From a virus, in IMG/VR virus record IMGVR_UViG_3300045256_000822, positions 1 to 58,085 of that record: a stretch of 58,085 nt of DNA, one strand, 5' to 3'. Positions 3,141 to 52,126 of the stretch are shown piece by piece. Both the position numbers and the translations under genes were made by a program. The notes beneath the pieces are model-generated. The model saw only the letters and a list, made by a program, of their open reading frames with translations. It ran no database searches and was not told where the DNA came from. How positions within the stretch are numbered: the first letter of the stretch is position 1; every line of letters starts with the position of its first letter.

Positions 3141-3572
3141 TCATGACACCGACGGCATCCCGCCGCTTCCGACTGTTCGCATCATGGCGAGCATCGACCG
3201 ACGCACCTTCGCATCCTTGATCCGATAGTAGGCACTTACCAATTTTACTGTCTCGCGCGATGCCATTGGATCGTCGGTTTTGGCTTGCGTAGTGTCGTGC
3301 GGCTTGAAGCGCCGAGCACTCGATCGCGTCTCTTCGAAGAACCAACCGACCGTCACGTCGAGCACCTGGGCGAGGGCATAGAGCCGGCTAGCCGACACGC
3401 GGTTGGTGCCGCGCTCGTATTTCTGGAGCTGCTGGAATGACACGCCGATGTCTTTGGCGAGCTTGTCCTGGCTGAGCCCAAGCAGCGTGCGGCGCAGGCG
3501 GATCCGCGAGCCGACGTGAATGTCGACCGGATCGGGATCGTCGTATCTCTGACCTCTATTGAGCTTTGGCAT
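3141..3572 (-). CDS. XRE-family transcriptional regulator
   Basis: This encodes 143 residues from an ATG at 3572 preceded by AGGAGAGACAG, a clear ribosome-binding site; longer readings start in sequence that lacks one. Residues 18-75 are a classic XRE/SinR helix-turn-helix with GLSQDKLAKDIGVSFQQLQKYERG. The C-terminal half is a Lys/Arg-rich helical tail as found in alphaproteobacterial XRE regulators of this size. It is the last gene of the leftward early operon, overlapping the preceding gene by 17 bases. It is a second XRE protein in addition to the repressor at 9104 and may control integrase or accessory genes; its target is unknown. Confidence 0.9.
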   Translation of the reverse strand: MPKLNRGQRYDDPDPVDIHVGSRIRLRRTLLGLSQDKLAKDIGVSFQQLQKYERGTNRVSASRLYALAQVLDVTVGWFFEETRSSARRFKPHDTTQAKTDDPMASRETVKLVSAYYRIKDAKVRRSMLAMMRTVGSGGMPSVS

Positions 3573-25054: not shown

Positions 25055-26992
25055 ATGCTCCTCGGCGACGCGACAAACCGCAAAGAGCCAGCGCAGGACA
25101 TCGACGTCGTCGCTCTGCAGCTCGATCGCTGGGATAGGGCCTCGACGGCGCAACGCCTGTGGGCCGAGGGAAAGGACGGCACGTCAGGCGCCAAAGCGTG
25201 TGTGAGGATGGTCGAGGGCGACCAGTGGGAGCCGGACGACGAGGCGAAGCTGAAGGCGTCGGGACGGATGCCGCTGCGGTTCAACAAGATCGCACCGCTC
25301 ACACGCATGCTGACCGGCTACTTCCGCCAGAATCGCTACGAGATCCGCTACCTGCCAGGCTCGGACGGCAGCGGTGTCGACGAGACCGCCAAGGCGCTGA
25401 ACCAGACCAACAAGCAGATCGACGAGATCAACCAGTCGCCCTGGAACGACGCGGAGGTCTTCCGGGATGGCATCTTCACCGGGCGCGGCTTCTTCGACGT
25501 GCGTATCGACCAGACACGCAACATCTTCGGTGAGGTGAGGGAACGGGTATTGGACCCATTCTCCGTCTATCCCGACCCCGAGGCCGACGCCTACGACCCG
25601 GACGAATGGGGTTTCGTGCAGACCAGCTACTGGTTTTCGTGGAACGAGATCCTGCTGATGTTCGGGCCGGCCACCGCGGATCTGGTCGACACGCGCGGCG
25701 GGACCGCCGGACGGATGCTCGGCAACATCATCGGCGGGACCCTCGGCGACACCGAAGTGGCGCCGCCGCGTTGGTTCGGCCTTTTCGACTATCTCGGCGA
25801 TGGCGGGCAGGGCTTCCTCTATGCCGGCTCGATCGTGCCAGGCAGCCCTTTCGAGCACGTCGACAAGCACAGGAAGCTGATCCGGCTGATCGAGTGCCAG
25901 CACCGCCAGCTGGTGAAGGTGCGGCAGTTCGTCGACCTCCAGACGGGCCAGAAGAAGACCATCCCGGCGCACTGGGACAACGCACGCATCAAGAAGGTCA
26001 TCGATTACATGACGGCCTTCGACATGCCGCTTACCGTGACCCAAGGGCTCGAGCGAAGGGTGCGGCACACCATCACGGCCGCCGACCTCGTGCTCTACGA
26101 CGACTGGAGCCCGTACGACACGTTCACGGTGGTGCCGTACTTCGCCTATTTCCGCCGCGGCAAGACGCGCGGCATGGTGGACGACCTCATCGACCCTCAG
26201 AGGGAGATCAACAAGCGCCGCTCGGTGTTCCTGCACATCGTCATGACGGCGGCCAACTCGGGATGGATCCACGAGAAGGGCTCGCTCACCGACGAGATGG
26301 CGCAGATGCTCGAAGAGGAGGGCAGCCGGCCCGGCATCCGCGTCGAGTATGAGAGGGGTCACCAGCCGCCGAAGCGCATCGACCCGGCCGTGGCACCGCT
26401 GGCACTCGAACGGCTCGAGCAGAAGGCCACGACCGACCTGAAGGAGATCAGCGGCATCAACGATTCGGCGCTCGGCCAGATCGACCGCGTCCAGTCGGGG
26501 AGGGCGATCAACCTGCGCCAGAAGCAGACGATCATCGGCGCCGAAGACTACTTCGACAATTTCTCGCGCACCCGCGAGCTCAAGGGCCGCAAGCGCCTCG
26601 AGCTGATCCAGAATTTCTACACGGAGCAGCGCCTGATCCGGGTCAGGGGCGAGGACGGCAAGAACATCGACACGATGATCAACCAGCGGCTGGGCGATGG
26701 CCGTGTTCTCAACGATGTGACCCTGGGCTCGTACACGGTGGCGATCGACGAGGCGCCGCTGGCGGCGACGTTCGATCAAGGCCAGTTCCAAGACCTGATC
26801 ACGATGGTCAAGGACCTGGGCATTCCGATCCCGCCCGACATCATCGTCGACGCCTCGAACGTGCCGCGTAAGCGCGAGATCCTCGATCGCATGCGGCCGC
26901 CCGTGCCCGGGCCCGGTGCGCCCGGTGCGCCTCCGGGTGCGCCAGGTGCGCCGCCCGGTCCGCCGTCCAACGTTCCGCCTGGTGTGACATGA
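25055..26992 (+). CDS. portal protein, P22-like
   Basis: This encodes 645 residues, close to the P22 gp1 length of about 725. It has the P22-portal pattern: ACVRMVEGDQWEPDDEAKLK, then MPLRFNKIAPLTRMLTGYFR, DPFSVYPDPEADAYDPDEWG, and FFRRGKTRG-like DLIDPQREINKRRSVFLHIV in the stem region. The C-terminus is a Gly/Pro-rich tail (PGAPGAPPGAPGAPPGPP). It forms the dodecameric ring through which DNA is packaged and ejected. The next gene overlaps its stop (ATGA). Confidence 0.9.
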   Translation: MLLGDATNRKEPAQDIDVVALQLDRWDRASTAQRLWAEGKDGTSGAKACVRMVEGDQWEPDDEAKLKASGRMPLRFNKIAPLTRMLTGYFRQNRYEIRYLPGSDGSGVDETAKALNQTNKQIDEINQSPWNDAEVFRDGIFTGRGFFDVRIDQTRNIFGEVRERVLDPFSVYPDPEADAYDPDEWGFVQTSYWFSWNEILLMFGPATADLVDTRGGTAGRMLGNIIGGTLGDTEVAPPRWFGLFDYLGDGGQGFLYAGSIVPGSPFEHVDKHRKLIRLIECQHRQLVKVRQFVDLQTGQKKTIPAHWDNARIKKVIDYMTAFDMPLTVTQGLERRVRHTITAADLVLYDDWSPYDTFTVVPYFAYFRRGKTRGMVDDLIDPQREINKRRSVFLHIVMTAANSGWIHEKGSLTDEMAQMLEEEGSRPGIRVEYERGHQPPKRIDPAVAPLALERLEQKATTDLKEISGINDSALGQIDRVQSGRAINLRQKQTIIGAEDYFDNFSRTRELKGRKRLELIQNFYTEQRLIRVRGEDGKNIDTMINQRLGDGRVLNDVTLGSYTVAIDEAPLAATFDQGQFQDLITMVKDLGIPIPPDIIVDASNVPRKREILDRMRPPVPGPGAPGAPPGAPGAPPGPPSNVPPGVT

Positions 26993-29805: not shown

Positions 29806-30924
29806 ATGGCATTGACAGACTTCGGCGCGCTCGCGCCGATGCAAAAGAAGGTTTGGGAAGCGGAGAGCTGGAAGGCCGGCCGCGACAACTCCTTCTTCTT
29901 CGCGTCCGGGTTCATGGGCAGCGGCACCGCCGACTCGCAGAAGCCCATCCACTACGTCAAGGACCTCACCAAGACGGAGCGGGGCGACCAGTGCGTGATG
30001 AACCTGATCCCCGATCTCGTCGGCGACGGTGTGGCCGGCGACAACCTCCTCAAGGGGCAGGAGGAGCAGCTCACGGCATCGGACCAGACCATCCGTCTGG
30101 ACCAGCTGCGGAACGCGGTGCGTTCGCGCGGTGCCATGTCGGAGCAGCGCACGGTCATCCGCTTCCGCCAGGAAGCGCGCGACACGTTGGGCAACTGGCT
30201 CGGCCAGAAATTGGACGAGCTGGGCTTCCTCACCGCGTCGGGCATCGCCTACACGCTGAACCTAGACGGCACGAACCGCGCGGTGGGAAGCCAGTTCCCG
30301 TCGCTCGCCTTCGCCGCCGATGTCACGGCGCCCAGCACGAACCGCAAGTTCTTCCCGGGCACCAACACGTCGACCGCGACCCTGACCGCGGCGGACAAGA
30401 TGACGTGGAATCTCCTGATCTCGGTCATCGCGTTCGCCAAGCGCCGCCGCATCAAGCCGGTCCGGTACAACGGCAAGGCCAAGTACCCGATCGTCATGTC
30501 GACGGAGCAGGGGCGCGATCTGAAGTCCGACCCGAACTATCAGACCAACGTCGGCCGCGCCGCCGATCGAGGCACGAAGAACCCGTTGTTCAACGGTTAC
30601 TTTGCCGAGATCGACGACGCGATCCTGTTCGACCACCCGAAGGTGTTCAACACCCTCGCGGCGGCGAACGGCTCGAAGTACGGGGCGGCGGGTGCGGTCG
30701 ACGGCGCGCAAGCGATGCTGGTCGGTGCCCAGGCCTTGGGCTTCGCGCGCATCGGCCAGCCGAACTGGACGGAGGACGCCGACGACGACTACGGCAACCG
30801 GCAGAACGTCGGTTACGGCACCATCGTCGGCTACAAGAAGCCGGTCTTCCAGTCGATCTACGACGGCAACGCGAACGAGGACTTCTCGACCGTCGCGATC
30901 TTCACGGCGGCTTCGAAGACCTGA
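29806..30924 (+). CDS. major capsid protein
   Basis: This encodes 372 residues. Features such as QKKVWEAESWKAGRDNSFFF, then PIHYVKDLTKTERGDQCVMN and the AMLVGAQALGFARIGQPNWT ending match the N4-gp56/DUF4043 type of HK97-fold capsid protein. It is preceded by CAGGAGCGCTCAGCT and followed by a strong terminator (30955-30978), which would let it be made in excess over later genes. No cleavage or decoration domain is visible inside it. Confidence 0.88.
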   Translation: MALTDFGALAPMQKKVWEAESWKAGRDNSFFFASGFMGSGTADSQKPIHYVKDLTKTERGDQCVMNLIPDLVGDGVAGDNLLKGQEEQLTASDQTIRLDQLRNAVRSRGAMSEQRTVIRFRQEARDTLGNWLGQKLDELGFLTASGIAYTLNLDGTNRAVGSQFPSLAFAADVTAPSTNRKFFPGTNTSTATLTAADKMTWNLLISVIAFAKRRRIKPVRYNGKAKYPIVMSTEQGRDLKSDPNYQTNVGRAADRGTKNPLFNGYFAEIDDAILFDHPKVFNTLAAANGSKYGAAGAVDGAQAMLVGAQALGFARIGQPNWTEDADDDYGNRQNVGYGTIVGYKKPVFQSIYDGNANEDFSTVAIFTAASKT

Positions 30925-36716: not shown

Positions 36717-38150
36717 ATGTGGCGCCCGCTGCCGATCGGGAAGTGGTTCGCCAATGCGAGCGAGGCAGTGCTGAGTCGATCATCGGCCGCGATCGAGAAC
36801 GCGTTCATCAATGAGGCTGGAGGGCTTACAGGCTTCTGGGGCCTGCGCCGGTTCGTCACGCTTCCGAGCGGGGGCCGCGTCTACCTCGACGATTGGAAGG
36901 ATTCGGACGGGGATCTGATCGCGGTCACTGGGCAGGGTCGCGTGTTCCGGGTCGACAAGCAGGCCAACGCGACCGACGTGACGAACGTGCCGCTGTCGGG
37001 CGGGCGGCGCCCGACCTTCGCGAAGACCGACGATCAGATGCTCATCGCTGCCGGTGGGCCAATCCTCGCCTACGCCGGAAAGGAGACACAGCCGCTTTCA
37101 TCCGAAGCCCCGGACTCGACGCATGTGGGCTATCTCGACGGCTTCACGATCGCGATCGAGCCGCGGTCCGGTCGCTTCTTCCACACCCAGGCTGGTGTCT
37201 CGACCTCATGGGACCCGTTGGACGTCTTCACGGCGGACGGCAAGCCGGACGATCTGAATGCCTTGGTCGTCACGCCGTTTCGCGAGCTTCTGCTGTGCGG
37301 CGTGGACTCGATCGAGCAGTTCGAGCGGCTTCCGTCCGGTGACCGGCCCTTTGCAAGACGGTGGGCGACAGGCGAAGGCGTTTACGCGCCCTACACACTC
37401 ATCACGGACATCGACGCCGGCACATGGGGGATCAACAGGAAGCGCGAGTTCGTCCGCATGTCGGGGCAGACCTCACGCCCGGTCTCGGACGATATTGGCC
37501 GCGCGATCGCTGTCGATGCGGACGGCGCGCCGCTGGACTACACCGACGCTTGGGGAGCACCGATCCTCGCCTTCGGGCAGAAGTTCCTCCTGCTGCAGCT
37601 GCCGGAGGCGCGCACGCCATACGGCACCAAGGGCCTGACGCTTCTGTTCGATTATCGGGTGGGCCGCTGGTACGCACTCTATGGCTGGGACAATGACCTC
37701 GGGCTGCCGGCGCGCTGGCCGGGATGGTCGGTGCACTCCTGCTGGGGCCGGACCTTCGTGGGCGGTGAGGGCATCATCTTCGAGCTGATCCGGACCGCGC
37801 ACGACAACGACGGCAGCCCGCGGCGAACACTCCTCCGCAGCGCTCACTACCCCGCGTTGGAGTTCGGCGGGAAGGTCGCACGCATCGACAACATCCGCGC
37901 GCGGCTGAAGCGCGGTGCTGCGGCACAGAACAGCGTCACACCCGTGTGCGGCATCCGCCTGCTCAAGGATGGCCGCAAGCCCACGAAATGGGCGCGGCGC
38001 TCCCTTGGACGGTCAGGAGAGACTGGCTTTTTCGTTGAGTTCGGCAGCTTTGGCGAGTGCGAGAGCTTTCAGGTCGAGTTCGTCGCGACCGATGCGGCTG
38101 AACTCGAGCTCGTGTCACTCGAGGCGGACATCACGCCGTTGGCGCGCTGA
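36717..38150 (+). CDS. packaged-DNA stabilisation protein, P22 gp10-like
   Basis: This encodes 477 residues, matching P22 gp10 (472 residues). It has the characteristic WFANASEAVLSRSSAAIENA opening, repeated beta-propeller blades (VTGQGRVFRVDKQANATDVT, then VYAPYTLITDIDAGTWGINR and LLFDYRVGRWYALYGWDND) and a beta-rich C-terminal domain. It plugs the portal after packaging, linking gp4 to the spike. The start follows the spike stop by one base and the stop overlaps the next ATG. Confidence 0.86.
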   Translation: MWRPLPIGKWFANASEAVLSRSSAAIENAFINEAGGLTGFWGLRRFVTLPSGGRVYLDDWKDSDGDLIAVTGQGRVFRVDKQANATDVTNVPLSGGRRPTFAKTDDQMLIAAGGPILAYAGKETQPLSSEAPDSTHVGYLDGFTIAIEPRSGRFFHTQAGVSTSWDPLDVFTADGKPDDLNALVVTPFRELLLCGVDSIEQFERLPSGDRPFARRWATGEGVYAPYTLITDIDAGTWGINRKREFVRMSGQTSRPVSDDIGRAIAVDADGAPLDYTDAWGAPILAFGQKFLLLQLPEARTPYGTKGLTLLFDYRVGRWYALYGWDNDLGLPARWPGWSVHSCWGRTFVGGEGIIFELIRTAHDNDGSPRRTLLRSAHYPALEFGGKVARIDNIRARLKRGAAAQNSVTPVCGIRLLKDGRKPTKWARRSLGRSGETGFFVEFGSFGECESFQVEFVATDAAELELVSLEADITPLAR

Positions 38151-41305: not shown

Positions 41306-42271
41306 ATGGTGCAGTACCTGACCCAGAATCCCGCTGTCGAAGGCTTCCAGGCCGGCATGCGCATGCAGGACGACGCGCGCGCGCGCGAGTTGCGGGATCT
41401 CCAGCTGGATGAAGCCTATCGCCGTCAGGGACAGGAGCGCGCGGCGACCGACGCGCTGCAAAACCTCTATGCGCGCGGCCGGCCGACTCCTGAAGCCTAC
41501 GATCAGGCAGCGGCGGCCCCCGGGCTCGGCGCGCAGCAGCGCATGCAGCTGGCAGGGCAGGGCGAGACGATCCGCCAGCGCAATCTTCAGGAGCGCGAAG
41601 CGGCCGCGCGGGACATGGCGACCTATCTGAAGCTCGGGCACATCCCCGCCGCGCAGGAGGCGGCGTCGCGCGCCGGCATCAATGTCCCGCCCGATTTCTG
41701 GTCGAACCGGGATCAGCAGACGCAGTTGCTGCAAAAGCTCGACATCGAGGCGAAGCAGGCCGACATCGCCCAAAAGCAGGCGCACGCGCAGTTCTGGCGC
41801 GGCGAGGGGCGGCAGACCGCGAGCGGTGCCGGTCACACGAGCGTGTTCCAGCAGAAGATCGCGCTCTACAAGGCAGCCTACCCCGACAAGAGCGATGCCG
41901 AAGTCCTCGAGATGGCGGACGGTCGCAAGCCGCCCAATCCCGCCGACCTCCGCGCGCGCGCGTTCGTCATCGCCCAGAAAGCGACCGATCACCTCGGCCG
42001 CCCACTCTACAAGACGCCGGAGGATCAGCGGCGCGCGGCCGATGAAACGCTGGCCTACATGCTCGGCGGCCAGCCGCAGACCGCTGCCGTGCCCGCGCCG
42101 GCAGCGCCGCCGACGGCGGCACCGCCCGCATCGCCAGCGCCAGCACCCGCTCCCGCAGCGCCGGCTGCTGCCGCGGGGCCGGACATGAGCCAGGCGCGTA
42201 AAGCACCTGACGGGCAGTGGTACGTGCCGGATCCGAGCCGCCCCGGCAAATTCCTTCGGGTCGAGCCGTGA
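41306..42271 (+). CDS. second ejection (internal virion) protein
   Basis: This encodes 321 residues. It is highly helical and Gln/Arg/Ala-rich (ARARELRDLQLDEAYRRQGQ, then GLGAQQRMQLAGQGETIRQR), with a Pro/Ala-rich linker (about 262-292). It has no membrane helix. Its stop overlaps the GTG start of the giant protein, so they are made together. The position and composition match the middle protein of three-part ejection sets such as P22 gp20 or T7 gp15. Confidence 0.7.
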   Translation: MVQYLTQNPAVEGFQAGMRMQDDARARELRDLQLDEAYRRQGQERAATDALQNLYARGRPTPEAYDQAAAAPGLGAQQRMQLAGQGETIRQRNLQEREAAARDMATYLKLGHIPAAQEAASRAGINVPPDFWSNRDQQTQLLQKLDIEAKQADIAQKQAHAQFWRGEGRQTASGAGHTSVFQQKIALYKAAYPDKSDAEVLEMADGRKPPNPADLRARAFVIAQKATDHLGRPLYKTPEDQRRAADETLAYMLGGQPQTAAVPAPAAPPTAAPPASPAPAPAPAAPAAAAGPDMSQARKAPDGQWYVPDPSRPGKFLRVEP

Positions 42272-45200
42272 AGCTCGTCGAAGTCGACCACGATCCCTTC
42301 ACCCAACCCGATCCGCAGCTCGTCGACGCCGTTCTCTCCGTAGAGAGCGGCGGGCGCGCGGATGCGGTCTCGCCGAAAGGGGCGACGGGTGTGGCGCAAA
42401 TCATGCCCGCGACGGCGCGCAGCCCAGGGTATGGCGTCGAGCCGCTGAGCGATCCGAGCGATCCGGAGCAGAGCCGCCGCTTCGGCCAGCAGTATCTCGG
42501 CGCGATGATCCGCAAGTACGGCGACGTCGACACCGCGCTGATGGCCTACAACTGGGGCCCGGGCAACGTCGATCGCTGGATTGCGGGCGGGCGCACCGGT
42601 CCCGTGCCGAACGAGACCAGCAGCTACGTCGAGAAGGTGAAGGCGAAAGGCCCACGCCTCGTTCCGGTCGAAGGCGACCCTTTCAAGCAGCCGTCGCAAT
42701 CCGCGCAGCCGAAGTTCACTCCAGTCGAGGGCAATCCCTTCGAGGCGGCGCCGGCCGAACCGAGCGAACAGCCCGACGAGCCGTTCCTGACCGATCCGCG
42801 CTGGAGGCGTGCGCGGCCGCCGCTGCAGTCCACGATGGTCAAGGAGCGGCTTCGCGCGGGCACCTATGGGCTCGGCGCCGGTCTCAGCGCTGCCGGCGCC
42901 ACGACCGCCGCGAGCATGCTCGACACGTTCGATCGCATCGACAGCGGCGAGAACGTGCCGGAATCCGACGACCCGGTCGGCTACCAGCACATGAACGAGG
43001 AGCAGCGGCGCCAGGCGCGCGCCGACATGCAGGCTTCGCTGGGCCGCAACGTCACGACCATGGTGCAGCGGCAGGCCGAGGCGGGGAAGACTCCTCCCTC
43101 CGAGACGACCCAGCGCGCGCTCAATGCGAAGACATGGGGCGAGTTCTGGGACGCGTTCACAGACGCACCGGGCCGGTTCATCGTCGAGACAGGACTCGAA
43201 TCGCTCCCCGCGTCCGCTCCCGGCCTCCTCCTCGGCGGTGGCGCCGGCGCCTTGCGCGGCCGCGTCGCCGCCATGCTCGGCATGGGCGGCGGCTCGTTCG
43301 CGGTCGACTTCGCAACCCAGCTGGTCGACGCGCTGAACGATGCCGGCGTGGACGTCTCCGATCCAGCCGCGGTCGAAGCCGCGTTGCGAGATCCCGAGAT
43401 GAACCGCGCCATCCGCCAGCGCGCGGCCCTGCACGCGGGACCCGTGGCCGCGCTCGATGCCGCCTCGGCCGGTCTCGCGACGAAAACCCTCGTCCCGCGC
43501 GCGGTCGCAAAGCCGATTGTGCGCGAGGCGCTCAACATCCCCGCTCAGGTCGGCGCACAGGGTGCACTCGGCGGTGCCGGCGAGGCGCTCGGCGAACTGG
43601 CGAGCGGTCAGGAATTGCAGCCCGGCCAGATCATGGCAGAAATCGCGGGCGAGGCCTTCGGCGCACCCGCCGAAGTGGCCTCGCTCGCCGGCGCGCGCGA
43701 CCATGCGGCGCCTGCTACGCCGCCACGTCCCGGGCCATCAGCTGCGGACCTCAAGGAAGTCCTCGAGGACAAACGTCCCGTTGAGGAGATCATGGCCGAG
43801 CGCCAGCGCGCGGCCGAAGCAGAGCACGAGCAGCTCACGCGCGATCGCCTCGTCGCACAGGTCCAGCAGGAGACCGGCGACACGGCCATGGCCGATGCCT
43901 TCCGCAAGGCGCTCGAAGGCAAGGGTGCGCGCACGGAACCGATGGACGTCGAAACCGGTGCGGACGTTGATGCAGCAGCCGCACAGGCAGATCCGGAGCC
44001 GACGCCGGCGCAAGCGGATGCCGGGAACTATCGCAAGGGCCACATCAGGATTGACGGGCTCGACATCGCGATCGAGACCGCGCGCGGCGACGTGCGCACC
44101 GGCATCGGATCGGATGGACAGCCGTGGTCGAGCGTGGCGCCGGCCCACTACGGCTACATCAAGCGCACGGTCGGTAAGGACGGCGATCAGGTCGACGTCT
44201 ATGTCGGGGACAATCCGCAGTCCGGTCTGGTGACGGTCATAGACCAGATCGACCCCGAGACCGGCCGCTTCGACGAGCACAAGATCGTTCTCGGGGCGGA
44301 CAGCCAGGCGGAAGCGCTGGCGCTCTACGACGCCGGCTTCAACGACGGATCCGGAGCAGCGCGGCGCGGCGCCGCCACCACGATGACCATGCCCGAGTTC
44401 AAGGCGTGGCTCGCCAAGGGAGACACGAAGAAGCCCCTCGCTTATCGCCCTGCGGCTCCCGTCTCCTCTCCGGCGGTCGAGCCTGCGGCGCCGCCCCCGG
44501 CTCCGGTTGCGCCTTCCGTCGAGCCGGGGGCGGTTGTCAGCACGATTTCTGTGGGTGCGACGGTCACCGTCGACACAGCGGATGGCGAGCAGGATGGCAC
44601 CGTGCAGGAGCGGTGGTTGCGTCAGGGCGTCCCATACATGCGCGTCGTCGACGACAATGGCGAGACGATTTACGAGGGGCCGATGAGCGCCGCGACCCCG
44701 GTCGCGTCGATGCTTCAGCGCGGTTTTGGCGAGAAAGGCGTCCAGTATTCGCTTGCGCTCGATATCCCGAAGGCGGAGCGTGCGCGCGAGCAGCCGCAGC
44801 CTACATCCGAGCCGGCGCAGTCGGCTCAGGCTCAGAGCGACTTCGAGCGCAGCGCCGTCGCCCCGTCATCGGCGGGCAGGCCGGACCTTGTCGTTCACGA
44901 CACGATAGACGGCCGGCCGGTCACGTACACAGCACCGGACCTCCTTCACAGGCGCCTGTTGAGCTACGCGCTCGACCTCGACGCCGGCCGACGCCGCCCG
45001 CGCGAGCGCAGTGCGCTCTTCAAGGCTTTCAAGCCTCTCATCGTCGAGGACTTCGCGAAGCCCGCCGACCTCGACCAGCTGGCAGCCGACTATCTCGAGA
45101 ACCTCCGCGCGAACGCGCACGATCGCAAGCTGAGCACGCTCAACGCCGAACTCGTCGTCGAGCCGGATCTTCAGGCCGAGTATTGGCGCACGAAGGTCAT

Positions 45201-48200
45201 GGCCGGCCGCAAGGGAGGCTCGCTCTACCACGCCGCCCCAGGTTGGACCGAAGCCCGCATCAAGCGGGAAATCGCGCGCGGCCTGTCGGCGATCGACGAC
45301 CTCTCGCGACGGAAGACCGGCCAGGTCATGGCGGCGATGTATCGGCCGGACCTTGGGCCGATCACGTTCGACTGGGGCCAGCCGGGCACCGGGCCGCGCT
45401 TCAAGAAGGGTGCAGGGGTGAGCCACATCCTCGCCAAGCACGGCGAGGCGGTCCTGAAGCGCATGCCGGAAGTAATCGCCCGCGGCAATATCGACCGGCT
45501 GCAGGGGCCCGAGGTCGGGCGGCGGGTCCATATCAGCTACGACGGGCACAGGGCCGTGCTCTCCCTGTGGCGCCACGGGGCGCAGGAGACCTGGCTTCTG
45601 ACGGGCTGGGATGAAGGGAACCCCGGCGGAATTGGCGGAGTGTACGGTCCGGCCAACCCTACGCTCTCCGGGCCTATGCGTTCTCGTCCCGAAGGGGGAG
45701 CGGGGTCCTCCGGTAATATAAGTGCAGCCAAGCCTGGCAGCAAGTTGCAGGCCGGCATGGCGATTTCCGGGGTCCCAGGCGTGACCCGCGTCGAGCGGGT
45801 GGCTCCGGACATGATCGGCGTCTACCGGTTGACCCCGGAAATGGAGGCGCGCCGCGCCCAGCTCGAGCCGCAGCTGCGCGCGATCGTGCAGCGGATGGCG
45901 GGTGGCAACGCGCCGGCGCTGACCGTCGTAGACACCCTGTTCACCGACAACCCGGACGACCAGGGCGCGCATTTCGGGTCCTACTCGCCACTGGCGAACC
46001 TCATAGCTATCTCGACTCAGTCTCCCGATCCGATCGGCACCGTCCGCCATGAGACCATCCATCTCCTGCGGCAGCTCGGGATCATCGATCGTGCGGCATG
46101 GAGGACCCTCGAAACCACCGCCATGGAGCGGAACTGGATCGGCAAGCACGACATCGAAACCCGGTATCCCGGCGCCGACGGCGATCTGATGCTCGAAGAG
46201 GCGATCGCAGATGAATTCGGCCGGCGCGCGACGTGGCTGCAGCTGCCGCCCGCGGTCAATGCCGTCTTCCGCAAGGTCGACGAGTTCTTCCGGCGCGTGC
46301 GCGCGGCCGTGCGGCGTGTGTTCGGCCGGGAGCCGGACTTCAAGGACCTTTTCACCGCGATCGAGCGCGGGTGGTACGCGGAGCAGCAGCCGTCGGAACC
46401 GGCAACGGAGCGCGCGGCCGCTCAGCGCGCCGTTGAGGATTTCAGCACCATGCAGGCCCAGGCGGTGCGCGACGACACCAGGCCGGAGAAGAAAGAGGCG
46501 ACTCTCCGGTCAGCGCTCGACACGCTGCACTCGAAGCCGCCGACCACTCCGGCACGGCCACTGCCTTTCGAGCATGATCTCGGCGGCTTCCAGCGGTCGA
46601 TGATCCACCCGCGCACGATTGCGGCGATGTACCCAGCCTTCACACCCGTGTGGAATGCCGGCGTCAAGCAATTCGCCACGCGCGATCGCGTTGCCGGCGA
46701 ACTGATCGGCCTGAAGGAGGCTTACGACAAGCTCTCCAACGAGCAGAAGGCGAACGTCAACAAGGTGCTCGAGCTGGGGCGCTTGCAGGGCGAGACGTTC
46801 CGGCCAGGCACCGACGGTCGGATTGTGACGCGCAACACGGTCGGCACGGCCGGAACCGGAAGCATCGGCGGTGCTGCGCTCTCGAAGGCCGGCGAGACCG
46901 TGACGCTGAGCCCGGACGAGGCGCTGGGCTATCTCGCCGTGCGGCGGACGATGGACAGGGCCCTCGACCTGTTCAAGGACCAGATGCTGCGCGAGTGGGG
47001 CTTCGACCCGTCGCTGCCCGGCACGCCCAAGACCGCACGCGAGTTCGAGGAGATGGCCAAGGAGGCCTCGGACGCGGGGGACGCGCCGACGGCGGAACGG
47101 CTGGGCAAGATCGCCAACGTCCTCGCCGAGGTCGAAATGGCACGCAAGCGCGGCTACGTGCCGTTCACGCGCTTCGGCCAGTGGTACGTCACGGTGCGCT
47201 CCGGTGATTCCGACATCGTGCATCGCGAACACTTCGAGGTGCCAGGCGGCACCTGGCGCGGGCCCGTGGGAGCCATCCAGCGCCGCCGCTGGGCGGCGAC
47301 GATCGAGGAGCGCCGGCGCGAGCTGATGCGCATGTACCCGCGAAGCGCCGGCTTCACGGTCTCGAATGTCCAACGCGTCACGCCGAAGACGATCGAGGAC
47401 CTGCCGAGCCTCGCCGATATCAGCGGGCTCCTGTCGGCGGCGCACCTCGACGTTGCGACGGCGGCGCGGGTCGAGGAAGCCGTGAACCGCGTGATCAAGG
47501 AGATGGGCTTTCGCAAGCACTTCATCAACGCGCGGAACGTCGCGGGATATTCGGCCGACTTCGACCGGAGCCTTGCGGACTACGTCACAGGGCTCGCCGG
47601 CTATCTGGGGCGGCGCGCGGCACGGGATGATTTCGAGGAAGCGTTGGCGCGGATTCCGAACGACACGTCGAAGCTGAAGCGCTACGCGACCGACTGGCAC
47701 GAGTACATCCAGGCGCCGAGCGAGGAATGGGCGCGGCTGCGGCAGGCGGGATTCCTCTATTACCTTGCTGGCCGCATTTCGAGCGCCGCGGTGAACCTGA
47801 CTCAGGTCCCCGTCGTCACGATGCCGTATCTCTCGCAATTCGCGGATCCGGCGCGCGTGAACATCCAGCTGGGGCGGGCCTATACCGATCTCTCGCAGAT
47901 GATGTCGGTCGACGCGGCGAAGAAGCTGACCATCTTCGACCCCGACAAGGCGCCCGAGGACGTGCGCGCCGACCTGAAGAAGGCTTTCGCGGACGGGACG
48001 CTTGTCCCGCTCGAAACGTTCCAAGAGATGGCGAAGGCGCACGGACGCACGCCGAGGGGCCGCCAGATCGAGCGAGGTGCCCGGAAGGCGATGGACCTTG
48101 CGGCACTGGCGTTCAGCGCTGCCGAGCGCGTCAACCGCATTGCCACGTTCATCGCCGCACACCGCCTCGCGCGCATGCCCGGCGTGATGGCCAAGGCCAG

Positions 48201-49350
48201 CCACGTCCTCGCCAGCAATGAGCTATGGGCCTCGTCGGACGAGTGGCGGACGCCGGCCGGCTTCGCGAAATGGGCCAGCGACGAGACGCACTACGTCATG
48301 GGTAAGCTGAATCGCCCGACGTTCATGCGCGGGCCCGGCTCGCTGATCTTCCAGTTCAAAGGGTTCACCGCGAACACGCTGGAGCTGTTCTGGCGCATGG
48401 GCTTCATGCACGAGGGGGCGGCGGGGAAGGGGGCTCTCGCTCTGTCCGCGCTGATGCTGCTCGTCTTCGGTGGTCTGTTCGGCCTGCCCGGCGCCGACGA
48501 CCTGAAGGAGTGGGCCGAGTATGTCTACAAGAAGGTCACGGACAAGGATATCGACCTTGAGCGCGAACTGCGCGCGATCGCCGGCGGGGGACTGCTGGGC
48601 CGCATGGTCGCTCGAGGACCCGCGCGCGAGGTGACCGGCGTCGACCTCTCGAAGCGAGTCGGCATGGGCGACATCATGCCGAACCCTGGCTTCGGTGATG
48701 ACGCGCTCCGTCAGGTCGCGCCGCTGCTTGGCGTGCCATTCGATCTTCTCGTGATGCGTCCCCTCGACGCGGGCACGGCCGTCGGCCGCGGTGACCCCCT
48801 CAGCGCCGCAATCCGGCTGTCTCCGGAAGCGATCGCGGACCCGCTCCGTGCCTTGCAATGGCAGACACGCGGATCGGTCGCGCGACTCACGGGGCGGAAG
48901 ATCCTCGACCGCGATCAGACTCTGCCGACTGGCGAGACCCTGCGAGATCCCGCGAACCTCGCGAAGCGGGCCATGGGCTTCCAACCTACTGGTGTTGCGC
49001 GCGCCATGGAGGAATACGGCGCCATCAACCGCGCCTCGCGCGCGGCGAATGACCTTTCGGCGACGTTCAACACGCGCCTTGCGTCCGCAATGGTCGCCGA
49101 ACAGCGCGCCGAGACCCCAGAGGCCCAGGCGAAAGCGCGCGCGGATCAGGAATCGGTGCTGCGCGACATCGAACGGCACAACCTCACGGCACCCGACCAC
49201 CTCCAGGTCGTGCCGTTCCAGAAGGGCCGCCCCAGCCCCGGCCTGCGCGCCGCCCTCGAGCGCGAGAACTACGGGTCCTACGCGACCCAGGACAAGCGCC
49301 TGCCGAAGAAGGCGCGCGGCGAAGCCGAAGCCATCCGTCCACTCTACTGA
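42268..49350 (+). CDS. giant polyvalent DNA-ejection protein
   Basis: This encodes 2360 residues from a GTG at 42268 (GTGA overlap). The domains run in this order. A lytic transglycosylase (SLT) comes first, at residues 15-115, with catalytic Glu26 (AVLSVESGG) and LMAYNWGPGN. An inorganic-pyrophosphatase-like polyvalent domain lies at about 585-725 (NYRKGHIRIDG, GDQVDVYVGD). A barnase/EndoU-type nuclease-like domain spans about 1040-1115 (VSHILAKHGEAVLKRMPEVI, WLLTGWDE). A zinc-protease domain follows, with His1261/Glu1262/His1265 (TVRHETIHLL) and EEAIADEF. The long C-terminal region has polyvalent-type helical modules and a hydrophobic segment near 2055 (LALSALMLLVFGGLFGL). It would be ejected to breach the wall and act in the new host. 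Confidence 0.85.
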   Translation: MKLVEVDHDPFTQPDPQLVDAVLSVESGGRADAVSPKGATGVAQIMPATARSPGYGVEPLSDPSDPEQSRRFGQQYLGAMIRKYGDVDTALMAYNWGPGNVDRWIAGGRTGPVPNETSSYVEKVKAKGPRLVPVEGDPFKQPSQSAQPKFTPVEGNPFEAAPAEPSEQPDEPFLTDPRWRRARPPLQSTMVKERLRAGTYGLGAGLSAAGATTAASMLDTFDRIDSGENVPESDDPVGYQHMNEEQRRQARADMQASLGRNVTTMVQRQAEAGKTPPSETTQRALNAKTWGEFWDAFTDAPGRFIVETGLESLPASAPGLLLGGGAGALRGRVAAMLGMGGGSFAVDFATQLVDALNDAGVDVSDPAAVEAALRDPEMNRAIRQRAALHAGPVAALDAASAGLATKTLVPRAVAKPIVREALNIPAQVGAQGALGGAGEALGELASGQELQPGQIMAEIAGEAFGAPAEVASLAGARDHAAPATPPRPGPSAADLKEVLEDKRPVEEIMAERQRAAEAEHEQLTRDRLVAQVQQETGDTAMADAFRKALEGKGARTEPMDVETGADVDAAAAQADPEPTPAQADAGNYRKGHIRIDGLDIAIETARGDVRTGIGSDGQPWSSVAPAHYGYIKRTVGKDGDQVDVYVGDNPQSGLVTVIDQIDPETGRFDEHKIVLGADSQAEALALYDAGFNDGSGAARRGAATTMTMPEFKAWLAKGDTKKPLAYRPAAPVSSPAVEPAAPPPAPVAPSVEPGAVVSTISVGATVTVDTADGEQDGTVQERWLRQGVPYMRVVDDNGETIYEGPMSAATPVASMLQRGFGEKGVQYSLALDIPKAERAREQPQPTSEPAQSAQAQSDFERSAVAPSSAGRPDLVVHDTIDGRPVTYTAPDLLHRRLLSYALDLDAGRRRPRERSALFKAFKPLIVEDFAKPADLDQLAADYLENLRANAHDRKLSTLNAELVVEPDLQAEYWRTKVMAGRKGGSLYHAAPGWTEARIKREIARGLSAIDDLSRRKTGQVMAAMYRPDLGPITFDWGQPGTGPRFKKGAGVSHILAKHGEAVLKRMPEVIARGNIDRLQGPEVGRRVHISYDGHRAVLSLWRHGAQETWLLTGWDEGNPGGIGGVYGPANPTLSGPMRSRPEGGAGSSGNISAAKPGSKLQAGMAISGVPGVTRVERVAPDMIGVYRLTPEMEARRAQLEPQLRAIVQRMAGGNAPALTVVDTLFTDNPDDQGAHFGSYSPLANLIAISTQSPDPIGTVRHETIHLLRQLGIIDRAAWRTLETTAMERNWIGKHDIETRYPGADGDLMLEEAIADEFGRRATWLQLPPAVNAVFRKVDEFFRRVRAAVRRVFGREPDFKDLFTAIERGWYAEQQPSEPATERAAAQRAVEDFSTMQAQAVRDDTRPEKKEATLRSALDTLHSKPPTTPARPLPFEHDLGGFQRSMIHPRTIAAMYPAFTPVWNAGVKQFATRDRVAGELIGLKEAYDKLSNEQKANVNKVLELGRLQGETFRPGTDGRIVTRNTVGTAGTGSIGGAALSKAGETVTLSPDEALGYLAVRRTMDRALDLFKDQMLREWGFDPSLPGTPKTAREFEEMAKEASDAGDAPTAERLGKIANVLAEVEMARKRGYVPFTRFGQWYVTVRSGDSDIVHREHFEVPGGTWRGPVGAIQRRRWAATIEERRRELMRMYPRSAGFTVSNVQRVTPKTIEDLPSLADISGLLSAAHLDVATAARVEEAVNRVIKEMGFRKHFINARNVAGYSADFDRSLADYVTGLAGYLGRRAARDDFEEALARIPNDTSKLKRYATDWHEYIQAPSEEWARLRQAGFLYYLAGRISSAAVNLTQVPVVTMPYLSQFADPARVNIQLGRAYTDLSQMMSVDAAKKLTIFDPDKAPEDVRADLKKAFADGTLVPLETFQEMAKAHGRTPRGRQIERGARKAMDLAALAFSAAERVNRIATFIAAHRLARMPGVMAKASHVLASNELWASSDEWRTPAGFAKWASDETHYVMGKLNRPTFMRGPGSLIFQFKGFTANTLELFWRMGFMHEGAAGKGALALSALMLLVFGGLFGLPGADDLKEWAEYVYKKVTDKDIDLERELRAIAGGGLLGRMVARGPAREVTGVDLSKRVGMGDIMPNPGFGDDALRQVAPLLGVPFDLLVMRPLDAGTAVGRGDPLSAAIRLSPEAIADPLRALQWQTRGSVARLTGRKILDRDQTLPTGETLRDPANLAKRAMGFQPTGVARAMEEYGAINRASRAANDLSATFNTRLASAMVAEQRAETPEAQAKARADQESVLRDIERHNLTAPDHLQVVPFQKGRPSPGLRAALERENYGSYATQDKRLPKKARGEAEAIRPLY

Positions 49351-49844: not shown

Positions 49845-50098
49845 CCGAAGATGAAGTCCGGAAAATCGTCCAGCAGAGCGTGCACGAGACGCTCACGACG
49901 CTCGGCATGGACGTCTCGGATCCTGAAGCCGTGCTCGCCCTCCAAGCTGATCACGCTTACCTGCGCCGCTCGCGGCTCGGCGCCGACGAAGTCGCGAAAT
50001 GGGTCAAGCGCGGCGTCATCACGGCCGGGACAAGCGGGCTGCTCTACACCGCTTGGGAAGGCTTCAAAGGCGCCCTGCGCCTGAAAGGAGGCGGCTGA
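49841..50098 (+). CDS. small protein of lysis cassette (DUF6127-like)
   Basis: This encodes 85 residues from an ATG at 49841 that overlaps the previous stop (ATGA). It reads MTEDEVRKIVQQSVHETLTT, then DPEAVLALQADHAYLRRSRL and a C-terminal hydrophobic helix (GVITAGTSGLLYTAWEGFKG). This is the pattern of small helical proteins with one C-terminal membrane segment next to endolysins, and may be a pinholin or antiholin. The stop shares a base with the endolysin start. Confidence 0.65.
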   Translation: MTEDEVRKIVQQSVHETLTTLGMDVSDPEAVLALQADHAYLRRSRLGADEVAKWVKRGVITAGTSGLLYTAWEGFKGALRLKGGG

Positions 50099-50490
50099 TG
50101 GACTGGACGTGGCCGCATTTCACGCCGGGCGAACTGGCATGCAAAGGGGACGGAGCACTGAAGTTCCATCCCGGCTTCATGGAAGCGCTCGAGGCGCTGC
50201 GCGTGGCATTCGGCCGCGCCATGACCGTGACCGGCTGCTGCCGGACGAAGGCCTACAACATCCAGATCAACGGCCATCCGCGATCGCTGCACATCTGCGA
50301 CGAGCCGCAGCACCCAGGACAGCAGGGGACGCTCGCGGCCGACATTGCTGTAGCCAGCGTCGTCGACGCGCGCGAGCTCGGGCTGCTCGCCATGACGCTG
50401 GGATGGTCTGTCGGCGTGCCGAAGGCCGGCTTCATCCATCTCGATCGCCGGGACCTCATCGGGCTGCCGCGCGGCCTGTTCGGCTACTGA
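50098..50490 (+). CDS. M15-type peptidase endolysin
   Basis: This encodes 130 residues. It resembles peptidase M15A: HFTPGELACKG at the start, a GRAMTVTGCCRTKAYN strand, and candidate zinc ligands His65 (RSLHIC), Asp82 (AADIAVA) and His114 (GFIHLDRR). It should cut peptide crosslinks in peptidoglycan at lysis. It has no signal peptide, so it needs the holin for export. The ATG shares a base with the previous stop (TGATG). Confidence 0.88.
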   Translation: MDWTWPHFTPGELACKGDGALKFHPGFMEALEALRVAFGRAMTVTGCCRTKAYNIQINGHPRSLHICDEPQHPGQQGTLAADIAVASVVDARELGLLAMTLGWSVGVPKAGFIHLDRRDLIGLPRGLFGY

Positions 50491-50693: not shown

Positions 50694-51067
50694 TCGTGCC
50701 GATCTGGGTGTATGCGGCAGCTGCCGCGGTCATCGCCGTGTCGAGCTTCGTCGCCGGCTCCAAGGTGGCCACCGACCACTGGAAGGCGCAGCTGGTCTCG
50801 GCGCAGCAGGATCACGACGAAGACATGAGGGAAGCCAATGAGCGCAATAACGACCTCGCGCGCCAGCTCGAGGAGAGCCGCGCCAGTGTTCGGGTGGTCT
50901 ACCGCACCATCAACCGCGCGGTGGAGAAGGTGGTCGAGAGGCCTGTATATCGCGCTGAGTGCGTCGACGATGACGGCCTGCGGCTCGCTAACGATGCCCT
51001 CGCAGGACGCGCCCCTGATCCCGGCAAACCTGACGGCGCCGTGCCCGGACCTAAGCCCGCTCGATGA
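50690..51067 (+). CDS. Rz-like i-spanin
   Basis: This encodes 125 residues from a GTG at 50690. Residues 4-22 (PIWVYAAAAAVIAVSSFVAG) are a membrane anchor, followed by a periplasmic coiled coil (DEDMREANERNNDLARQLEE) and a disordered Pro/Gly-rich end. This is the shape of the inner-membrane spanin. The Rz1-type frame lies within and past its end, as in other spanin pairs. It acts in the last stage of lysis to fuse the membranes. Confidence 0.82.
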   Translation: MIVPIWVYAAAAAVIAVSSFVAGSKVATDHWKAQLVSAQQDHDEDMREANERNNDLARQLEESRASVRVVYRTINRAVEKVVERPVYRAECVDDDGLRLANDALAGRAPDPGKPDGAVPGPKPAR

Positions 51068-51173
51068 TAAGACCGGTGCGGCACTCGTCGCGAAGCTGGT
51101 CGAGGTCAGCGAGCAGTATTATGAGTGTCGGGCGCGGCACCGGGCGCTGAGCGAATCTGTCGGCAAACCTTAA
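50838..51173 (+). CDS. Rz1-like o-spanin lipoprotein, nested
   Basis: This encodes 111 residues in a frame nested in the Rz-like gene. Near residue 36 begins a signal-like LYIALSASTMTAC with a candidate lipobox Cys48, followed by a Pro-rich mature part (PSQDAPLIPANLTAPCPDLS) and a helical end (LVAKLVEVSEQYYECRARHR). The N-terminal 35 residues are Arg-rich, so the true start may be later. The nested, lipoprotein-type frame after an i-spanin is the hallmark of Rz1. Confidence 0.75.
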   Translation: MSAITTSRASSRRAAPVFGWSTAPSTARWRRWSRGLYIALSASTMTACGSLTMPSQDAPLIPANLTAPCPDLSPLDDKTGAALVAKLVEVSEQYYECRARHRALSESVGKP

Positions 51174-51361: not shown

Positions 51362-52126
51362 ATGTCTTCCGCCGTCCAACGAAGGTTCGATCCGACCGGC
51401 CCCATGCCTTCGAGAACTCGTTACCGCGCCCCGACAGAGATCGTCGCGGTCACGCTCAAGGAGTTGATGGCGGCGACGGGTCGGGCTGCGCTCAAAGAGC
51501 AGCAGTTCGATATGTTGCGTTCTGCGGGCACTGCCGGCGGCCGAGACGACGTGCGCGTCTTCTACGCGGGCGATGTCACATTGCTCAGTCGGCGTTGCGT
51601 GTCGATCGTTGGCACGCGTGAGGTTACCGAAGCCGGCCGGCTGCGTGCGTCACGCTTGGCAAGGGAATTGGTTGCGGCGGGTGTCGCCGTTGTGAGTGGC
51701 CTTGCAAAGGGCGTCGACACTGCGGCGATGACAAGCGCGATCGAAGCCGGAGGCAAGACCATCGGCGTAATCGGGACGCCCCTGAACAAGGCGTATCCCG
51801 CCGAGAACGCGGAACTTCAAGAGCAAGTCTGGAAGCGCTTTTTGCTGCTGACGCCCTTCGCCGTTGGCGAACCCACATTCAAAAGCAGCTTTCCGAAGCG
51901 CAATCGGGTCATGGCCGCCCTCACCGACGCGACCGTGATTGTAGAGGCGTCGGATACGTCTGGAACGCTCCATCAGGCGGCAGAGTGTCAGCGGATAGGC
52001 CGCTGGCTGTTCATCATGAAGTCGGTCGCCGAAGATCCCAGTCTGAAGTGGCCACGTTCGTTCCTGACTGGCCCCAAGACTGCGGTCCTCGAGAATACCG
52101 AGGACATTATTCGCGCGATCGGGTGA
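51362..52126 (+). CDS. DprA/Smf-like protein (ShosA-like)
   Basis: This encodes 254 residues. The Rossmann-like DprA/SLOG core shows CVSIVGTREVTEAG (79-92), VVSGLAKGVDTAAM (110-123), GKTIGVIGTPLNKAYP (131-146), FPKRNRVMAAL (residues 177-187) and an EASDTSGTLHQA segment. These match DprA signatures for ssDNA or nucleotide binding, but without the C-terminal winged domain. It is followed by a phosphoribosyltransferase gene sharing a base with its stop. In ShosTA antiphage modules a DprA-like antitoxin is paired with a phosphoribosyltransferase toxin. Identification rests on this pairing. Confidence 0.8.
   Translation: MSSAVQRRFDPTGPMPSRTRYRAPTEIVAVTLKELMAATGRAALKEQQFDMLRSAGTAGGRDDVRVFYAGDVTLLSRRCVSIVGTREVTEAGRLRASRLARELVAAGVAVVSGLAKGVDTAAMTSAIEAGGKTIGVIGTPLNKAYPAENAELQEQVWKRFLLLTPFAVGEPTFKSSFPKRNRVMAALTDATVIVEASDTSGTLHQAAECQRIGRWLFIMKSVAEDPSLKWPRSFLTGPKTAVLENTEDIIRAIG

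Follow-up and report, generated by a model that had tools for sequence, protein, structure and literature searches.

A putative polyvalent ejection protein combining transglycosylase, pyrophosphatase-like, nuclease-like and predicted zincin-like modules in a P22-like podophage

The giant gene and its four enzyme-like modules

The window (the whole stretch of DNA analysed, 58,085 bases) is a virus contig classed as linear and possibly a fragment; because the record is linear, its ends may be missing. Its plus strand encodes a P22-like portal protein (25055..26992; PF16510, E 8e-106), a major capsid protein (29806..30924; PF13252, E 2.6e-38), a head-closure Hc3 protein (36717..38150; phrog_578, E 5.7e-18) and a putative polyvalent ejection protein of 2360 aa (42268..49350, +), which begins with GTG and has its stop codon within this range, confirming the single open frame described in an earlier note on this DNA. 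The start codon of this frame and the stop codon of the preceding one share bases (GTGA), as in coupled genes. The giant gene is the final virion gene of a P22-like podophage and lysis genes come next: on its 3' side lie one small frame, a peptidase M15-type protein that is a probable endolysin (49999..50490, +; PF08291, E 1.2e-6), and an Rz1-like LysC (50838..51173, +; PF23793, E 2.3e-6). A DprA-like protein (PF02481, E 1.6e-50) is found at 51362-52126, just 3' of the podophage lysis genes. Two long antisense open frames within the giant gene (42055-43704 and 46510-48204, both on the minus strand) look like GC-rich coding shadows. Exact peptide patterns run against viral contigs and genome contigs retrieved no near relatives of the whole 2360-aa protein.

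An SLT transglycosylase domain occupies residues 15-106 (42310..42585, +; Pfam PF01464, E 1.3e-19, 70.3 bits against a cut-off of 21.3), and the catalytic Glu26 that had been named for it was invariant across the SLT set. Downstream are a region matching phrog_9880 (residues 224-507; 42937..43788, +) and the InPase domain (family I pyrophosphatase-like, residues 581-715; 44008..44412, +; PF18823, E 9.8e-44, 148.9 bits, cut-off 26.8), in agreement with the inorganic-pyrophosphatase-like domain recognised earlier. Residues E603, D638, D640, D643, D669 and K672 are present in the window protein, the metal-binding acidic residues and the Lys being nearly invariant among relatives. The InPase domain also has a relative in a portal chain of solved structure, 9b41, where it makes up the C-terminal part. 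Assignment of the 9b41 "gp19 portal" to phage DEV was considered and rejected, as the DEV portal is gp80.

The region first read as a barnase/EndoU-type nuclease-like domain is a PBECR1 nuclease-like domain (residues 1008-1116; 45289..45615, +), matched by Pfam PF18809 over residues 1023-1116 (E 2.1e-7, 31.8 bits; cut-off 27.6). It has the His in its N-terminal part (His1058) and the Ser/Thr close to its C-terminal end (Thr1112) that mark PBECR1; His1058 was kept in 77% of rows and Thr1112 in 100%, the latter partly a search bias since one search pattern included that Thr.

A zincin-like metallopeptidase (MPTase) was predicted at residues 1194-1376 (45847..46395, +) from homologues and a structural model. 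The HExxH peptidase region expected at residues 1261-1265 was found there as HETIH (46048..46062, +), and it is conserved in homologues; about 0.035 HExxH motifs are expected by chance per shuffled protein of the same make-up. Glu1310-Glu1311 (46195..46200, +), on the next conserved helix, is the candidate third zinc ligand, as judged from conservation and the model. The homologues, including those in viral contig L007 (41% identity over 124 residues) and Ruegeria phage 45A6, retain H1261, E1262, H1265 and E1310/E1311, and both the HExxH motif and the Glu-Glu pair 45 residues past it were invariant in 76 non-redundant rows. The search patterns favoured HExxH and EEA, and this bias was checked by counting the rows that each pattern did not recruit: HExxH was found in 16/16 rows recruited without the HExxH pattern, and EEA in 54/62 rows recruited without the EEA pattern. 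In the AlphaFold2 model of the region (mean pLDDT 85), a helix at the N terminus and strands are accompanied by the HExxH helix, which the Glu-bearing helix follows. This order of HExxH and Glu is that of zincins, and the Foldseek/VIA-align matches of the model were mostly zincins but weak (best E 0.0067, Z of at most 7.6); on the model, a zincin fold is likely. When the alignments of the MPTase, PBECR1 and C-terminal modules were used as profiles against the PDB, no match rose above chance level.

The peptidase family is widespread in phage giants (the profile scan retrieved 80 viral loci), yet the window copy matches no Pfam model: Pfam reported no family and no curated peptidase match for its peptidase region. 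A second, different motif, HEWWH, occurs in the giants of L007 (residue about 1409) and of another locus, L181 (residue 1594), and may mark a second peptidase.

All four enzyme-like regions of the earlier note thus proved real and lie nearly at the residues it named. Their catalytic residues are present in the window protein and conserved among relatives, and domains of several unrelated predicted activities share one polypeptide.

Known polyvalent proteins and the module sets of relatives

Polyvalent proteins were defined by Iyer et al. 2017, and carry the same domain types as are seen here; about 36% of them contain zincin MPTases and up to 26% contain PBECR domains, and the phage-type proteins include InPase as well as MPTase fusions with lysozyme/transglycosylase and PBECR1 (PMC5512222). 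Like the phage-type proteins of that study, the window protein has disparate catalytic domains in one chain and is encoded among virion genes. The nuclease and peptidase domains had been called unexpected, which holds when the comparison is with a plain P22 ejection protein; in the polyvalent class such domains are routine (PMC5512222). What is new is how the modules are combined, all of them being of known kinds: the set and order of the window protein, SLT-InPase-PBECR1-MPTase-tail, was seen in no other retrieved locus; L181 carries 4/5 of its modules.

Among relatives the sets were InPase-PBECR1-tail (21 frames), InPase-tail (21), PBECR1-tail (7) and MPTase-tail (4), counts that come from loci picked by module similarity with near-duplicates included, and that speak to the occurrence of shuffling, not to its frequency. 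The set MPTase-PBECR1-tail was seen in 3 overlapping loci of one contig, where the peptidase precedes the nuclease, the reverse of the window order. At the sequence level, these sets show that modules shuffle freely around the C-terminal part. The SLT of relatives is often its own gene immediately upstream of the giant: in 14 loci it has its own frame, the next large frame is an MPTase or PBECR1 giant in 13 of these, and in 12 of those 13 the two frames overlap or lie within 100 bases of each other. That the SLT is fused here and adjacent elsewhere suggests that it works together with the modules of the giant. In Pseudomonas phage Itty13 (L004), a 3997-aa open frame on the + strand from about 4320 carries PBECR1; GenBank annotates antisense frames over it, and it is probably a misannotated giant gene.

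Two named phages offer giants of comparable build. Gene 60 of Pseudomonas phage F116 shares the C-terminal module of the window protein, with 27% identity over about 740 residues, and directly precedes holin and lysozyme, as the window giant also stands before lysis genes; it has ART, LPD23 and a putative metallopeptidase match, and is without SLT, InPase and PBECR1. The paper on the Antarctic prophage AH14a contains no virion proteomics evidence for an F116-like phage. BcepIL02, a P22/933W-type podophage, has as its last virion gene, as here, the gene for gp70 (4667 aa), which bears SLT (88-174) and a C-terminal LPD38 and is separated from the lysis genes after it by two small genes on the reverse strand. 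Unlike the window protein, gp70 has SNF2 helicase and methylase-type domains and ends in LPD38 instead of the tail-700 module, and direct sequence similarity between the two is limited to the SLT. Mass spectrometry of virions purified on CsCl detected 51 unique peptides of JC1 gp69, a giant of the same Bcep22-like group (PMC9144972); the domains were mapped in BcepIL02 gp70 and the virion data are those of JC1 gp69.

The C-terminal module and internal virion proteins

Residues 1629-2288 (47152..49131, +) form a PLxRFG / tail-700 module of about 660 residues (NCBIfam NF032893, 239.8 bits; cut-off 100), which in the retrieved frames that bear it ends at most 82 residues before the C terminus. 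Residues 1952-2045 (48121..48402, +; ERxNR ... DET ... QFKGFT) resemble the QFKSFT segment of T7 gp16 by a weak profile match. The membrane-like segment reported earlier corresponds to one hydrophobic stretch, residues 2049-2077 (48412..48498, +), the sole strong one in the protein.

The C-terminal model (933 residues) was mostly helical with a mean pLDDT of 78. It found no match in a PDB fold search, where single domains of so large a model can be missed; in the BFVD viral library it matched many polyvalent proteins as well as the "internal virion protein D" of CRP-4 and CRP-5 (E 1e-6 and 4e-6, TM 0.42-0.44), a UniProt name for what the deposited CRP-5 record lists as a hypothetical gene (gp39). 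Single-template profile scores, which are uncalibrated and are not E-values, were compared with permuted or natural controls: the CRP-5 gp39 profile scored 55.8 against the tail-700 module (permuted maximum 29.8), full-length T7 gp16 scored 26.0, below its permuted maximum of 28.6, and the C-terminal part of T7 gp16 scored 27.9 (maximum 25.9 in 40 controls), a weak match in which QFKSFT is aligned with QFKGFT. The segment immediately upstream of Pfam LPD38 scored 52.8 against the N4 vRNAP end, above all permuted (up to 30.3) and natural (up to 36.2) controls, and 29.7 against the tail-700 module, where 1/60 permuted controls reached 30.3 and 0/70 natural ones exceeded 24.0. The direct profile match of the tail-700 module to N4 vRNAP was not significant, and Pfam reported no LPD38 on N4-like C-terminal domains. 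In N4 gp50 (L248), residues about 3363-3461 resemble the segment upstream of LPD38. The tail-700 module and the LPD38 segment never share a frame (113 and 69 frames).

The known ejected proteins share some of the architecture. T7 gp16 (internal virion protein D) has an N-terminal SLT as here, T7 relatives also carrying SLT; unlike the window protein it is without InPase, PBECR1 and MPTase. N4 vRNAP (gp50), an ejected giant, has an HExxH zincin-like segment (C1) ahead of a large helical C-terminal domain (C2, 110 kDa) (PMC12633501), as the window protein has its peptidase ahead of the helical C-terminal part; it carries RNA polymerase, unlike the window protein. The tail-700 module, T7 gp16-like proteins, the LPD38-upstream segment and the C-terminal end of N4 vRNAP may be one old ejection chassis bearing interchangeable cytoplasmic effectors. 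We regard this common chassis as a lead from profile comparison, with slightly less than an even chance of being right.

Proposed course of ejection and competing explanations

We propose, with a probability of roughly 0.8, that the window protein is a polyvalent ejection protein whose chassis is that of an internal virion protein. The family matches, conserved catalytic residues, gene position and relatives all point to the polyvalent class named in the earlier note, and on these sequence-based grounds the protein belongs to that class and is very probably ejected. The fold and profile matches of the tail-700 module to internal virion proteins, together with the presence of a similar giant, JC1 gp69, in virions, give new support for ejection.

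The giant would be packed in the head with the DNA, retained or led out by its C-terminal tail-700 module; this C-terminal packaging role is our proposal, and the N-terminal capsid-targeting signal of phage P1 DarB (PMC9024508) speaks against it. At infection it would exit via the short tail, whereupon the N-terminal SLT would open the murein, and the hydrophobic stretch with the rest of the helical C-terminal part would lie on or within the inner membrane. The cassette in the middle of the chain would enter the cytoplasm, where the zincin-like peptidase would most likely divide the protein into functional fragments, the PBECR1 domain would cleave RNA and the InPase domain would remove pyrophosphate or a nucleotide signal.

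The earlier note suggested that one injected protein could act on host nucleotides, RNA and proteins at once. The MPTase of polyvalent proteins has been proposed to process its own chain, with cleavage of host proteins left possible (PMC5512222), and following that argument cutting of the polyvalent protein itself appears at least as likely as cutting of host proteins. That the peptidase is instead an effector that cleaves host proteins, and no self-processing enzyme, seems to us unlikely although worth keeping in mind: the structural matches of its model include secreted zincins as well as IrrE-type regulators; however, HExxH or HExxxH stands ahead of the tail-700 module in 84/102 of the giants bearing this module with enough upstream sequence, and this occurrence, of the pattern only, fits a general function better than a single target in the host. 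The N4 vRNAP with its MPTase domain is packaged uncut (PMC5512222), which makes the time of any self-cleavage uncertain.

Some of the enzyme-like modules could lack activity and have a structural or binding role instead. The InPase is the best candidate for this, because portal proteins carry it as a fusion too, as in the C-terminal part of the portal chain described above; such near-invariant metal-binding acidic residues and Lys would be unexpected for a dead domain, and we consider this explanation improbable. Least probable of all is a structural or late intracellular protein that is not ejected and whose enzymes act in assembly or lysis, for although the gene adjoins lysis genes and its SLT could aid lysis, distinct endolysin and Rz1-like genes are present, there is a resemblance between the C-terminal module and an internal virion protein, and virions of another phage contain a giant of similar build (PMC9144972).

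Read as an ejected polyvalent protein, the giant offers a compact test case, module by module, for the way in which phages bring several enzymes into a cell as a single chain. Should the chassis link be true, the still little-understood C-terminal parts of T7 gp16 and N4 vRNAP and the large PLxRFG family would have a common origin and role, and the tail-700 proteins in databases would be predicted to be ejected virion proteins.
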